A program made the translations under genes and the position numbers. A DNA stretch of 37,719 nucleotides, taken from positions 1-37,719 of the IMG/VR virus record IMGVR_UViG_3300032677_000082, one strand, 5' to 3'. Positions within the stretch are counted from its first letter, which is position 1; each line of letters begins with the position of its first letter. The stretch is from a virus. Shown in pieces: positions 15,430-37,719 of the stretch. Below the pieces are notes generated by a model. The model was given only the letters and a program-made list of their open reading frames with translations. It ran no database searches and was not told the DNA's origin.

Positions 15430-15945
15430 TTATACTGCGAAATCATCAGCTGCTGAAGAACCACCACCTAATTTATCAGCATCAGCTAACTTTTGTAGGT
15501 TGTTTAAACCACACGCAATACCTTTAGAACCGGCGGCATTGTATGGGTAAAATGTTACAGATGCACGACCATAACAACCACTATAGAACTCGTTTTGGTC
15601 AAACAACTCTTCACGATTTGCATCTACAACTTGAGGCTTTTGTGCGCTGTTGGCGTTGATAAAATAATGACCTGCATAAGCTGCATCATCACGCTCTTCA
15701 TCACCATCACGCAAACCGCCTTTTAAACCTTTTGGTACTGAGCCGCCAAAGAACGCTGCGTTAGTTGTCTTAGCATCTTCAAAGGCTTTTTTAATCTTTG
15801 CAACACCTTCAACATCGGACTTAGGGATAAGAATAGAAACTGAATACTTTGGTTCGCCACCATTCATACCAGCTTTTGGCTGAAATACATTAGCGTATGA
15901 AAAACGAACTTTACCTGTTACGATTTTAACTTTGTTGGATTGCAT
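15430..15945 (-). CDS. Phage single-stranded DNA-binding protein (DUF2815 family)
   Basis: 171 aa. The opening (VTGKVRFSYANVFQPKA, then EPKYSVSILIPKSD) is characteristic of DUF2815, a phage SSB family with an OB fold. The C terminus is acidic and ends in a hydrophobic tail (SAADDFAV), like the protein-docking tail of SSBs. It has a strong promoter at 16009-16036, a leader with a hairpin, and a terminator after it, so it is probably a highly expressed single gene. It contains one GTTTAAAC octamer (15502). Confidence 0.88.
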   Translation of the reverse strand: MQSNKVKIVTGKVRFSYANVFQPKAGMNGGEPKYSVSILIPKSDVEGVAKIKKAFEDAKTTNAAFFGGSVPKGLKGGLRDGDEERDDAAYAGHYFINANSAQKPQVVDANREELFDQNEFYSGCYGRASVTFYPYNAAGSKGIACGLNNLQKLADADKLGGGSSAADDFAV

Positions 15946-15965
15946 TTTATTTCCTATTTACATTA

Positions 15966-15992
15966 GAACTGGACTTCAATAGGGGCCAGTTC
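15966..15992 (-). promoter_or_regulatory. Hairpin in the SSB leader
   Basis: GAACTGG and CCAGTTC form a 7-bp stem with a 13-base loop in the 5' leader of the SSB mRNA, 20 to 47 bases before the ATG. It could be a binding site for autoregulation by SSB or simply stabilise the RNA. Confidence 0.4.
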
Positions 15993-16008
15993 GTCTACCC
16001 TTAACGCT

Positions 16009-22808: not shown

Positions 22809-22816
22809 GTTATTCC

Positions 22817-22891
22817 TTATAGCATTGAGTGTAATATGATTAAAATAAAACCGATTTCAATGGCGAATCCGAATATCGCTGTGATATCCAT
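22817..22891 (-). CDS. 24-residue membrane peptide
   Basis: One hydrophobic segment (ITAIFGFAIEIGFILIIL). AGGAACAACTA precedes the ATG, which overlaps the upstream TAA (TAATG). Position in a chain of coupled genes supports translation; function unknown. Confidence 0.5.
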   Translation of the reverse strand: MDITAIFGFAIEIGFILIILHSML

Positions 22892-23010
22892 TAGTTGTTC
22901 CTGTGGTATGCGTTGTTAGGGTTGGCCAGCATACTGGCAATTAGCTCGTCTGCATTCCAAAACCATTGCTGCGCCCGTAAGCCGTCTGCTTGGTAGATGG
23001 AGAAGCTCAT
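22891..23010 (-). CDS. 39-residue protein, unknown
   Basis: Polar and Trp/Asn-rich (ADGLRAQQWFWNADELIAS). Its ATG overlaps the stop of the frameshifted gene upstream (ATGA) and its TAA overlaps the next ATG. Confidence 0.5.
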   Translation of the reverse strand: MSFSIYQADGLRAQQWFWNADELIASMLANPNNAYHRNN

Positions 23011-23103
23011 AGCATCATCACTGCTGATCTTCTGTTTAATAATTCAGCTTGCAATTCTTGTACCCATGCTTTAAAGTAAGTCAGCTAGTTCATTTGTGTT
23101 CAT
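23007..23103 (-). pseudogene. NELADxL paralogue with +1 frame change
   Basis: Begins MNTNELADLL then TAA; in the +1 frame it continues KAWVQELQAELLNRR and stops at a TGA overlapping the next ATG. The start copies the start of the 87-aa gene at 23517-23780 (MNANELADYL). Either a frameshifted remnant or a programmed +1 site, because the stop is preceded by CTT as in prfB. Confidence 0.5.
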
Positions 23104-23225
23104 TTCTCGCCTTTGTATTCATATAAAGTCACGCACTCAGTTTGGTCGCAAATTACTCTGCGGGTGTATGGGCTTGTAGTGCAAGCAACCAGAAAAATAA
23201 ATAGTGGTAGTAGATACTTAATCAT
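23100..23225 (-). CDS. Small lipoprotein
   Basis: 41 aa. Signal peptide MIKYLLPLFIFLVAC with lipobox LVAC; the mature part would begin at Cys15 and has two more Cys (VICDQTEC). ATGA overlaps at both ends. Size and type recall Rz1-like spanin lipoproteins, but no partner with the Rz layout is adjacent and the mature part lacks Pro-rich sequence, so lysis or envelope exclusion are both open. Confidence 0.65.
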   Translation of the reverse strand: MIKYLLPLFIFLVACTTSPYTRRVICDQTECVTLYEYKGEK

Positions 23226-25004: not shown

Positions 25005-25138
25005 TTTGTTTTCTCACAGTTGTATATGACGGTGCAAATATTGTTTTGACAAATAATTTCCTTGGTGCAAGTTTGAGTTTGCGCAAAGGCGGTGATTGGG
25101 CTAAATGCCAGTAAAAATAACCAAATAATACACTCCAT
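25001..25138 (-). CDS. Small secreted Cys-rich protein
   Basis: 45 aa. Signal peptide (CIIWLFLLAFSPITAFA, cut after AFA), then a short mature part with four Cys (TCTKEIIC, NICTVIYNC), likely two disulfides in the periplasm. AGGAGATAAGT before ATG is a strong ribosome site. Function unknown; an envelope-acting phage effector is possible. Confidence 0.65.
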   Translation of the reverse strand: MECIIWLFLLAFSPITAFAQTQTCTKEIICQNNICTVIYNCEKTK

Positions 25139-25140
25139 AC

Positions 25141-25353
25141 TTATCTCCTAAATGGTGTGGCTGGTGCGCGTCTGCCGTACAACCGACGAACCTTTATGGC
25201 TGTAATTCTGCCAAAGGTAATATTTCGCCAGCCTTGGTGCGCGCGTCTTGTTCGTTGTAGCTTAAAGCGTTTTTTCTTAAACTTAGGTATGTAACTACGC
25301 ACACCTCTGCGCCGACCAACACCACCAAAAATGGTGGTGAAGTCGTTACGCAT
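25141..25353 (-). CDS. Small highly basic Arg/Lys protein
   Basis: 70 aa from ATG 25353 (AGAAAG upstream); the longer frame to 25410 would run into the primase end. About a third Arg/Lys (GRRRGVRSYIPKFKKKRF). Likely binds DNA or RNA. No family recognised. Confidence 0.55.
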   Translation of the reverse strand: MRNDFTTIFGGVGRRRGVRSYIPKFKKKRFKLQRTRRAHQGWRNITFGRITAIKVRRLYGRRAPATPFRR

Positions 25354-25369
25354 TATTGTCTTTCTAAAG

Positions 25370-27700
25370 TTAAAACACTTCTTCATTAAATGATTCCACG
25401 CTCTCAACATACTTTTGAGCTTTGTCAGTTAATTTTACACCATGGTAAACCTGTATTCTACCACCGTTTGCCCTATCTTCGCCAGTTAAAATTCTATGCT
25501 CCTGTGTAGCGGCTAAGAAACGGCGTTTAAACGCTAGTTCTGTACCTGGGGGTAAAGACTTATGTATAGCCCATTTTTTGTAGCAAGTGAACACATCGTC
25601 TTTAGATACCTTACCTGTAGGGTCAAACACAAGAGCGTCTTCAACAAATGAACCTATTGGATTGCCCAGTTCGGACATTAACTCTAATAACTGCTTACCC
25701 GATTCTGGTTGGATAAAGTGCCCACCACGGGCTAGTCGGCGTTTAAGTCCATCCATAGCCCAGTTAAAAATACCAGCTAACTCCTTATCTAATTTAACGG
25801 ACAAGTCTGTATCTTCATTGTTATAAAATGAACGGGTCATTTTAAACACTACCATACGGCCCGTCAATGCGTTAGAGTTCTCAGTTAATTGAAGTACCTC
25901 GTTACTATAAACCACAATACGGGTAGGAAGATAGCCGCTCCAAGCCTCTTTGTTCTTTCGATTGACTGTGACGGTATCGCCACCCACAATCCGCAAAAGC
26001 TGAGATACGACAGCACTCCTATTACGTTCGGGAGCTCTTGCATCTGTGAAAGAAGCCAATAATTTACCCAGCCAAGGCTGTAAGCCAAAAGTATCACAAA
26101 GTTCCTCTAGTTGTGGTGCAACGGTATTATGTTGTCCTAGTAACGATACCAGCACCTTGTTAATAGTCCCCTTACCTGATCGGCGAGGTCCGATAATATT
26201 AAAGAATTTTTGTTGCTTTGTTTCACCCGACAACACATATCCAAACATTTCTTGCAATGCTTGGACTGATTCAGGGTCATCCCCCCATACTGATTCTAAA
26301 AACCCCATCCATGATGGGCATTGTGCAGTTGGGTTATATGTAAACGGCAATGAGTTTGGAGTAAAGAATCCCAATGAGTGCGGGATCATTACATAATCTT
26401 TTAGATGGAAGATTCCGTTTTTAAGGGAGATAAGGTCAGAAGCGTCGGGCTGGTTTGAAGCATATTGTTCCAACCAGATTGGCGGTTTCGTATTAGGATG
26501 GTTTGGCAAATGGCAGATGGACTTAACTGCATCGAGTGCCGCAGATACGGATGCTGGAGAAGGGTTAAACATTTCAAGTGCCCCCTTTCTTCCCGTCTTC
26601 TTGCATTTATCCAAAAAAGCGTAAAGTTTAGCTCTGATTGTTGCTTCTTCGATAATTTCATAATGAGTACCTACATAAATAAAGAAGTCCTGCGCGTAGT
26701 GAACTAATGTATGTCCTTCTTCGCTTGAGAACAGATTGTCTAAAAACGTACGGGCATGATTCATTGTTCCTGCATCAAGAATAATATCGCCCCGCTTTAA
26801 CGCCGCTTGTCTGGTTTGGATGTTTACTTTGAAGATAAGCGAGCGCAACGTGGATGTAGAACCACTCTCCCGTTTAAACGTCTTCCACTTTGCATGGCAT
26901 GAGTTATCGCCCGTGGCTTGGTAGGCTGGTGTTGCTCCATCATTGTAAGACCATGTATTCCAGAGTTCACAGGCTTCCGGGTCACCTCTAAACTGGTGAT
27001 GGAGAGCATACCCTACACTCATCCAGTCTGCGTAGCCACAATCAGGGTTTAAATGCGCTAGGATGTCTGTTTCAACACGGGCTAGGTCGTACTCAGGGAC
27101 AGGGGGTTTGTAGTCTGCAAAGTCATCCCCAGTAACATGAACCACCCTATCAGGAATAACGGAGGATAAGTCTTGTTCCTGTGCGGGGACAGAACCGCTT
27201 ATAAGGTGTCCTGTTACCGTGAAGTATCTTCCATGGGGGTATGCCTCAAATCCAATCGAATGGTCTACATGGGCTGTTTTAAGGCTTCCACGGGTAAATA
27301 TCTTTACACCTGTTCCCGATGGGCTGATTTCCATGTAGCCGTTGACGGATTCTGCAATATGCTGCATTGCAGCATTTGTGAAACTCGACAATTCGGCATC
27401 ATAGCAGTCATCCAAATCAATGCCCACTAGGTTATCATCTTCGGAGAAGACAAATCCAACACCACTAAATCGGTCAGGGTTGTTTTGATAGGCGGCTTGG
27501 ACTGTTAGGAAGTCTGCCCATGTTGTTGGGTTAGTGGATGATGCAGATTGCCCTGATGCTTGAATTGGTAGTTTTGACCAGCGTCTATTACCTTCTTCGC
27601 CCACTTCTGTATGACGCCATAGAACCCATCTAGGGATTCTTTTAATCTCCATGGGTATGTTCTCAAAGATTACGGGCAGTGCTTCTGGTTTATTGCTCAT
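25370..27700 (-). CDS. Primase-polymerase / SF3 helicase (P4/D5-type)
   Basis: 776 aa. N-terminal primase-polymerase part: GVGFVFSEDDNLVGIDLDD (metal-binding acids), SPSGTGVKIFTRG, YFTVTGH. A PriCT-type segment follows (YADWMSVGYALHHQF). The C-terminal half is a superfamily 3 helicase: Walker A GPRRSGKGT, LASFTDARAPERNRSA, VVYSNE. This is a fused initiator-primase-helicase as in phage P4 and D5-type proteins. ATG at 27700 has AAAGGAATC upstream, and the gene begins beside the putative origin. Confidence 0.9.
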   Translation of the reverse strand: MSNKPEALPVIFENIPMEIKRIPRWVLWRHTEVGEEGNRRWSKLPIQASGQSASSTNPTTWADFLTVQAAYQNNPDRFSGVGFVFSEDDNLVGIDLDDCYDAELSSFTNAAMQHIAESVNGYMEISPSGTGVKIFTRGSLKTAHVDHSIGFEAYPHGRYFTVTGHLISGSVPAQEQDLSSVIPDRVVHVTGDDFADYKPPVPEYDLARVETDILAHLNPDCGYADWMSVGYALHHQFRGDPEACELWNTWSYNDGATPAYQATGDNSCHAKWKTFKRESGSTSTLRSLIFKVNIQTRQAALKRGDIILDAGTMNHARTFLDNLFSSEEGHTLVHYAQDFFIYVGTHYEIIEEATIRAKLYAFLDKCKKTGRKGALEMFNPSPASVSAALDAVKSICHLPNHPNTKPPIWLEQYASNQPDASDLISLKNGIFHLKDYVMIPHSLGFFTPNSLPFTYNPTAQCPSWMGFLESVWGDDPESVQALQEMFGYVLSGETKQQKFFNIIGPRRSGKGTINKVLVSLLGQHNTVAPQLEELCDTFGLQPWLGKLLASFTDARAPERNRSAVVSQLLRIVGGDTVTVNRKNKEAWSGYLPTRIVVYSNEVLQLTENSNALTGRMVVFKMTRSFYNNEDTDLSVKLDKELAGIFNWAMDGLKRRLARGGHFIQPESGKQLLELMSELGNPIGSFVEDALVFDPTGKVSKDDVFTCYKKWAIHKSLPPGTELAFKRRFLAATQEHRILTGEDRANGGRIQVYHGVKLTDKAQKYVESVESFNEEVF

Positions 27701-27805
27701 TAAGATTCCTTTCTTATTTCCGCTATTGTATAGCGAAACAGCCGGAAATACTAAATAACTTTTAGTTATATTGAAATTCCTTATGATACCAAAAAGTTAT
27801 GGATT

Positions 27806-27914
27806 GACAGGGTAGCGGGGGTCTATCTCACTTTATTCTTTTTTAAAAAAAAAAAAAAAAAAAAAATATAATAAGAAAAGGTAAATATACCCTGTATTTC
27901 ACGACTACCCTGTC
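27806..27914. repeat. 10-bp inverted repeat around the A-tract
   Basis: GACAGGGTAG (27806-27815) and CTACCCTGTC (27905-27914) flank the A-tract. A partial third copy, ATACCCTGTA, lies near 27888. Could be binding sites for a phage initiator. Confidence 0.65.
27810..27832 (+). repeat. 23-bp element, copy 1 (origin)
   Basis: Starts GGGTAGCGGGGG and ends TCTATCTCACT; identical to 37641-37663. Both copies are followed by a long poly(A/T) stretch. Confidence 0.9.
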
Positions 27915-27920
27915 TATTTT

Positions 27921-27962
27921 TGTGGATAACCTGTGGATAACCTGTGGATAACCTGTGGATAA
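27921..27962 (-). promoter_or_regulatory. Four DnaA boxes, 11-bp period
   Basis: TTATCCACA on the - strand at 27921-27929, 27932-27940, 27943-27951 and 27954-27962. Each matches the strong bacterial DnaA box; all point the same way and are one helical turn apart. Confidence 0.85.
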
Positions 27963-27999
27963 CTTTTATTGCACCATTCTTGGGCGTTTTGCGATAAAA

Positions 28000-28011
28000 T
28001 TTTGCATTAGT
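28000..28011 (+). promoter_or_regulatory. TTTTGCATTAGT element, isolated copy
   Basis: + strand TTTTGCATTAGT with GGGCGTTTT upstream (27982) and AGAATAA downstream, as at 3013-3055. It points away from any + strand gene and overlaps the end of a - strand gene, so it may be a remnant or produce antisense or origin RNA. Confidence 0.4.
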
Positions 28012-37140: not shown

Positions 37141-37347
37141 GCACCACATTGGTGCCTGGCGGTTAGTGCCTACTAACATTCCACATTATGAGATGACATA
37201 CCACAATGCGGATGCACCACATTGGTGCATTGCCTAAGTAAGTAAGCACTCACTAACATAGCGCACCACATTGGTGCATTGATAGTAAGCACTCACTAAC
37301 ATAGCAAGTAAGTAAGCACTCACTTATCCAATGCACCAACATGGTGC
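37141..37347. repeat. GCACCANNNTGGTGC palindromes, four copies
   Basis: 37141-37155, 37214-37228 and 37263-37277 have spacer CAT; 37333-37347 has ACA. A fifth copy is at 29342-29356 before the sigma gene. Confidence 0.85.
37241..37327 (+). repeat. AAGCACTCACTAACATAGC direct repeats
   Basis: Full copies at 37244-37262 and 37287-37305, a partial one at 37314-37327, each with AGT in front, interleaved with the GCACCA palindromes. The core GCACTCAC also occurs in the sigma inverted repeat. Confidence 0.85.
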
Positions 37348-37492: not shown

Positions 37493-37645
37493 GCGCGGGG
37501 GTACGTTTTAATATTTTTTTTATATAAATCAAAGACTTACAGCGGTTTTGCCAGTTTTGCGCGGGGGTAGCGCGGGGGTAGCGCGGGGGTACGAGATAAA
37601 AAATATCGTTATAAATCAAAGACTTAACCCCCTTGCGCGGGGGTA
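37493..37645 (+). repeat. GCGCGGGGGTA repeats, five copies
   Basis: 37493-37503, 37559-37569, 37570-37580, 37581-37591 (these three in tandem) and 37635-37645. G-runs of five could form quadruplexes on this strand. Confidence 0.9.
37523..37626 (+). repeat. 17-bp direct repeat TATAAATCAAAGACTTA
   Basis: Exact copies at 37523-37539 and 37610-37626, surrounding the tandem GC-rich 11-mers. Confidence 0.85.
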
Positions 37646-37719
37646 GCGGGGGTCTATCTCACTATTTCTTATTATTTTTTTTTTTTTTTTTTTTTTTTTA
37701 AAAATAATAAAGTGATAAA
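37641..37719 (+). repeat. 23-bp element copy 2 with 25-T tract
   Basis: 37641-37663 is identical to 27810-27832, then TTTCTTATTA, 25 T (37675-37699), and AAAAATAATAAAGTGATAAA to the window end. Reversed, the A-tract flanks resemble those at 27832-27876. Confidence 0.85.

Follow-up and report, generated by a model that had tools for sequence, protein, structure and literature searches.

The gap at positions 27701-28006 of the window (the whole stretch of 37,719 nucleotides of viral DNA analysed here) is, judging from its sequence, very probably a replication origin. With a probability of about 0.7 we favour the reading that its central element, designated A, is one half of a bipartite origin of the P4/PICI type, that the phage primase-helicase is the initiator, and that the adjoining DnaA boxes were gained in this lineage as a probable helper. 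The original prediction had been an oriC-like phage origin at this place. An origin is what we too favour, but its oriC-like character was not borne out because the boxes are not kept in relatives. The paired, co-changing iteron origin is a more general and better supported finding than a start by DnaA.

Organisation of the gap

As originally described, the gap immediately precedes the primase-helicase gene (27700..25370, minus strand) on its 5' side. It is not, as had been thought, the sole gap of about 300 bases, since stretches of 413 bp (22809-23221) and 365 bp (25005-25369) without a retained open reading frame also exist. Read outward from the gene, the order is proximal arm, AT stretch with the A22 tract, distal arm and DnaA boxes (Table 1). 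The predicted 22-A tract, the inverted pair (GACAGGGTAG at 27806-27815 and CTACCCTGTC at 27905-27914) and the four exact, same-direction TTATCCACA boxes (27921-27929, 27932-27940, 27943-27951 and 27954-27962) were all present. Read on the plus strand, each box is TGTGGATAA. In the gene-outward reading the distal arm is TACCCTGTA/TTTCACGAC/TACCCTGTC. Many of the 9-bp units are G-rich, and an interpretation as DnaA-trios was rejected on this ground. Within the gap no RNA family was matched in Rfam, no terminator-like sites were seen and the count of promoter-like sites was not above chance. Elsewhere in the window a DUF2815 RNA (Rfam RF03084) was found at 15943-16001, upstream of the gene for an ssDNA-binding protein.

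Table 1. Features of the putative bipartite origin and its presumed initiator in the window
Feature	Position	Strand	Basis
Presumed initiator: primase-helicase of 776 aa with AEP-type primase, PriCT_2, D5_N/SF3 helicase and C-terminal winged helix	25370..27700	-	domain, profile and structure matches
Presumed repeat-binding domain: C-terminal winged helix, about residues 680-770	25391..25663	-	RFX DNA-binding domain match
Proximal arm of element A, GACAGGGTA / GCGGGGGTC	27806..27823	+	sequence
AT-rich core of element A, A22 at 27845-27866; presumed melting region	27824..27887		AT core kept in relatives
Distal arm of element A, three 9-bp units, GACAGGGTA / GTCGTGAAA / TACAGGGTA on minus strand	27888..27914	-	sequence; 9-bp periodicity in relatives
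DnaA-box array, 4x exact TTATCCACA, 11-bp steps, GG linkers	27921..27962	-	sequence; absent in relatives
Three tandem GCGCGGGGGTA units beside element B	37559..37591	+	sequence
Element B, GCGCGGGGGTA / GCGGGGGTC, then AT core with T25 (37675-37699)	37635..37719	+	similarity to A; equivalents in relatives

The window contains four exact boxes in all, every one within the array, while 200 dinucleotide-model sequences of the same length held 0.48 on average and 3 at most. Slippage could yield perfect tandem copies within a single genome, so this count alone is no proof of selection. The enrichment of such arrays in IMG/VR, described below, is the stronger sign.

The A-tract part of element A recurs in the window at 37650-37715. 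This copy belongs to element B, which is 88% identical to A over 66 bp. In the window the contig end truncates B, and B was recognised there initially by its similarity to A, so that here it is not independent of A. Next to element B lies a 43-bp tandem repeat with GCACCAnnnTGGTGC palindromes (37214-37305), which is probably part of a divergent promoter region. In the window two copies of ATAAATCAAAGACTTA are found close to B, and a 13-mer, AATCAANNACTTA, recurs around A and B in many relatives (e.g. L010, L018, L019 and L023).

Conservation in related phages

Searches with the primase gave 23 and then 80 loci in partly overlapping sets, and 64 non-redundant relatives were compared. Contig L004 was rejected as independent support, being identical to the window across 14,121 bp and the same virus; closing the window's genome with its far end also failed, since only the repeated A-tract element matched. 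Two MAG contigs of uncultured betaproteobacteria carry relatives and one Comamonadaceae MAG contig a weaker one (40% over part of the protein), so the hosts of this phage family are probably betaproteobacteria.

Inverted arms with an AT core were found upstream of the primase gene in about 48 of the 64 non-redundant relatives. Their 9-bp arm units include GTCATAGTA, GACAGGGTA, GTACTAGTA, GACATAGAA, GTCACACTT and TTACTAGGG. In an autocorrelation of the relatives lag 9 alone stood out, with a mean best score of 14.2 of 20 against 10.3-11.0 at other lags and 10.2-10.4 in shuffled sequences. The DnaA array behaves differently. None of the others among the 64 non-redundant relatives has a tandem array upstream of its primase gene (two have a single exact box there), and the whole contigs of 49 relatives contained not a single pair of boxes spaced at 11 bp. 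In this phage family the array is a single independent occurrence. A search of related phages for the array, as had been proposed, therefore recovered the 9-bp repeat/AT-core element without the boxes, and the loss of boxes in close relatives that the original prediction had named as evidence against itself does occur, even where the primase is 85-88% identical. In the origin/promoter region upstream of the primase gene a Fur-box-like motif of the AATGAGAATGATTCTCATT type was seen in L011, L016, L018, L022, L023, L164 and L168, and it possibly reflects host iron regulation.

A scan of the relatives for the architecture of B, not for its sequence, gave a hit in most of those with enough sequence. 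Two elements per genome were recorded in 14 genomes, with B 5.6-11.4 kb upstream of A; several of the searched relatives had A alone and two had neither. In relatives B is flanked on one side by the divergent terminase/portal operon and on the other by the early operon.

GC skew gives no support to A as a single start. A change had been expected around 27.8 kb, but the cumulative minimum of the window's genome lies near 33.7 kb and there is none at 27.8 kb, so that skew was discarded as proof of an origin there. In three relatives the minimum is found -5.8 to +2.2 kb from B, with A 9-10 kb away. The pattern matches divergent transcription at B, a confounder of the skew signal there.

The primase-helicase and its presumed binding sites

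The 776-aa protein matched PriCT_2, DUF5906, D5_N and phage DNA primases. A profile built on 15 relatives had as its closest solved structures the SaPI5 primase-helicase (7ola/7om0) and the NrS-1 primase. A predicted full-length model of moderate confidence (pTM 0.38, pLDDT 73) led to these two again and to the D5/E5 hexameric helicases. The primase domain is of the AEP/NrS-1 type and not Toprim. Modelling of the last 130 residues by themselves (pLDDT 82) gave a winged helix; its best structural match was the RFX DNA-binding domain 1dp7 (TM 0.79 by target length), at an E-value of about 2e-3 that indicates fold class and not homology.

The repeats of A and B change together. The 9-mers common to A and B amounted to 0.44 within genomes compared with 0.044 between genomes (permutation p=5e-5), and the same comparison of the flanks gave 0.06 and 0.01. 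That sites 6-11 kb apart change together suggests a common reader of both sets of repeats. Repeat similarity also followed the C-terminal domain of the primase-helicase when the helicase domain was controlled for (partial Mantel r=0.23, p=0.0005), and the reverse test for the helicase domain gave -0.01; the set is small (39 sequences), ancestry is only partly controlled and shared ancestry can inflate partial Mantel values. The primase domain tracks the repeats less well although it is nearer to them on the DNA, so linkage alone probably does not explain the pattern. Such tracking fits the known use of the C-terminal domain by SaPI Rep and Cch2 in binding origin repeats (PMC7581432) and of the winged helix by P4 alpha (PMC4234260).

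Tandem DnaA boxes in other viruses and plasmids

At 11-bp spacing, three exact TTATCCACA boxes were found in at least 120 contigs of IMG/VR (85 after removal of those with similar flanks) and at 12-bp spacing again in at least 120, while 10-bp spacing gave 0 contigs and two scrambled 9-mer controls gave 1 and 0. Spacings of 11 and 12 bp are those expected for cooperative DnaA binding. The excess over the scrambled controls indicates that tandem box arrays are selected, and it makes DnaA binding at the boxes of the window likely. The 11- and 12-bp arrays are loci L027-L146 and L277-L355; six boxes in unbroken 11-bp register were seen in L064/L111, and the arrays of L033 and L055 adjoin a replication gene of the ssDNA-phage type. 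Tandem arrays had been held to be typical of bacterial or plasmid origins, but a 42-nt array query matched 5 of 72,556 plasmid records and 24 of 50,697 phage records.

Among the matches listed, the gene neighbours of 11-bp arrays were diverse, the gene for the terminase large subunit being the commonest. The array stood upstream of terL in 55 of the 57 terL-holding loci listed and, for listed contigs longer than 15 kb, within 2 kb of terL in 11 of 48; this bias arises in part because short viral contigs are picked for such hallmark genes. The notion that these arrays are neighbours of replication genes was dropped, as terminase genes prevail. Loose arrays were also found beside the terminase gene of Berlinvirus, and some Arthrobacter and Vibrio phages have arrays close to the ends of their records. 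In three T7-like phages (Berlinvirus P483, A7 and NJ2; L230, L231 and L234) AGTTAYCCACAG repeat clusters occupy a non-coding stretch beside the terminase gene. Given such neighbours, DnaA-box arrays in phages are real, yet no mark of an origin by themselves.

A proposed bipartite iteron origin

We propose that the C-terminal winged helix of the primase-helicase would bind the 9-bp iterons of A and of its partner B. The protein would assemble on the repeats as SF3-type hexamers, melt the AT core and then unwind and prime. The four DnaA boxes would have been gained in this lineage, just outside the distal arm of A. Host DnaA bound to them would most likely help with opening or with the recruitment of host machinery, or the boxes may possibly be a regulatory site only. 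A place 7 bp outside an origin arm favours the helper role, even if this is seen in one lineage only, and DnaA as a late-gained helper is plausible.

The proposed origin resembles the PICI/SaPI-type iteron origin (defined in PMC6092414), as exemplified by SaPI5 (7ola/7om0) and EcCICFT073, whose initiator is Rep or Pri-Rep. In both, two sets of iterons flank an AT-rich region, the repeats are specific to each element, and a cognate D5/SF3-type primase-helicase with a C-terminal DNA-binding domain is encoded beside the origin. Here, in contrast, the origin is upstream of the gene and not downstream, there are two such elements, separated by about 10 kb, DnaA boxes are an addition of one phage, and the genome is that of a tailed phage of about 65 kb. 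It has portal and tail genes of its own, and relatives have terminase and portal genes, unlike a phage satellite or chromosomal island. In other words the origin would work like a PICI origin, but the phage itself is not a PICI.

Phage P4 has two separated cis elements, ori and crr, with the same iterons. The same arrangement was found here, as was a fused primase-helicase with a C-terminal winged helix. The P4 alpha primase is of the Toprim type, unlike the present one. Moreover, each element here consists of two inverted arrays, the iterons are of 9 bp and the spacing is 5.6-11.4 kb.

Alternative explanations

It might be thought that the array is unrelated to origin opening and instead regulates transcription of neighbouring genes or titrates host DnaA. 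This is rather doubtful, although the array is 220 bp from the primase start and the arrays of other viruses mostly adjoin genes without a role in replication, frequently upstream of terminase. Titration would be expected to take more than four boxes, and the array is placed close to the origin arm and not near the primase start.

The location of B next to terminase genes is a point against the origin model, since a packaging role is possible. A, B and the DnaA arrays of other phages would then be packaging or genome-end signals. The position of B between the terminase and early operons in relatives, the arrays upstream of terL among the matches listed, those beside the Berlinvirus terminase gene or near record ends in some Arthrobacter and Vibrio phages, and the contigs of the window and of G015, both of which terminate at B-type A-tracts, would be consistent with this. 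However, contigs commonly stop at homopolymers as an artefact of assembly, A is some 10 kb distant and adjoins the primase gene, and the repeats track the primase C-terminus. We consider a packaging function quite unlikely.

Host DnaA as the main initiation mechanism is also unlikely. An oriC-like course, in which host DnaA, once bound to the boxes, opens the A22/AT region and loads the host helicase, the phage primase-helicase acting later, has precedents in iteron plasmids with adjacent DnaA boxes and in P1 oriR. As in the window, iterons, an AT-rich region and DnaA boxes adjoin one another in those origins. It would account for exact head-to-tail boxes at 11 bp beside an AT-rich tract, an arrangement shared with bacterial oriC, and for the enrichment of such arrays in viruses. 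The initiator of iteron plasmids and P1 is a RepA-type protein without a helicase, which needs DnaA and DnaB. The presumed initiator of the present phage is a helicase in its own right, and the DnaA boxes are optional in the family; they are missing from every relative, whereas the origin-like element persists. With the boxes lost in relatives, an initiator-type helicase encoded by the phage and the skew minimum elsewhere, the idea that host DnaA starts phage replication is improbable.

Finally, the inverted arms could form a stem-loop of the kind proposed for the AEP-SF3-winged-helix proteins of the pRN1 and BIP-1 type (PMC4234260), with which the complementary arms and the domain order of the protein agree, but this is very improbable because the arms hold direct repeats of 9 bp, which are superfluous for a stem and point to iterons, pairing in the window is limited to 10-13 bp around a gap of 89 nt, and the units differ between the arms in several relatives.

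Implications

On the preferred reading of a two-site iteron origin with DnaA as helper, an uncultured phage family gains a predicted bipartite origin and a predicted binding domain, and the joint change of the repeats and the C-terminal domain offers a natural data set on shifts in the DNA specificity of initiators. We suggest tentatively that the window holds a composite viral origin in which fast-changing two-site iterons were joined by an acquired, cooperative host-DnaA array, tandem boxes being a convergent and little-described feature of viruses at origins or terminase loci. If true, such an origin would tie phage replication to host initiation. The widespread tandem boxes of viruses pose the question of why many phages carry sites for host DnaA, often near terminase.
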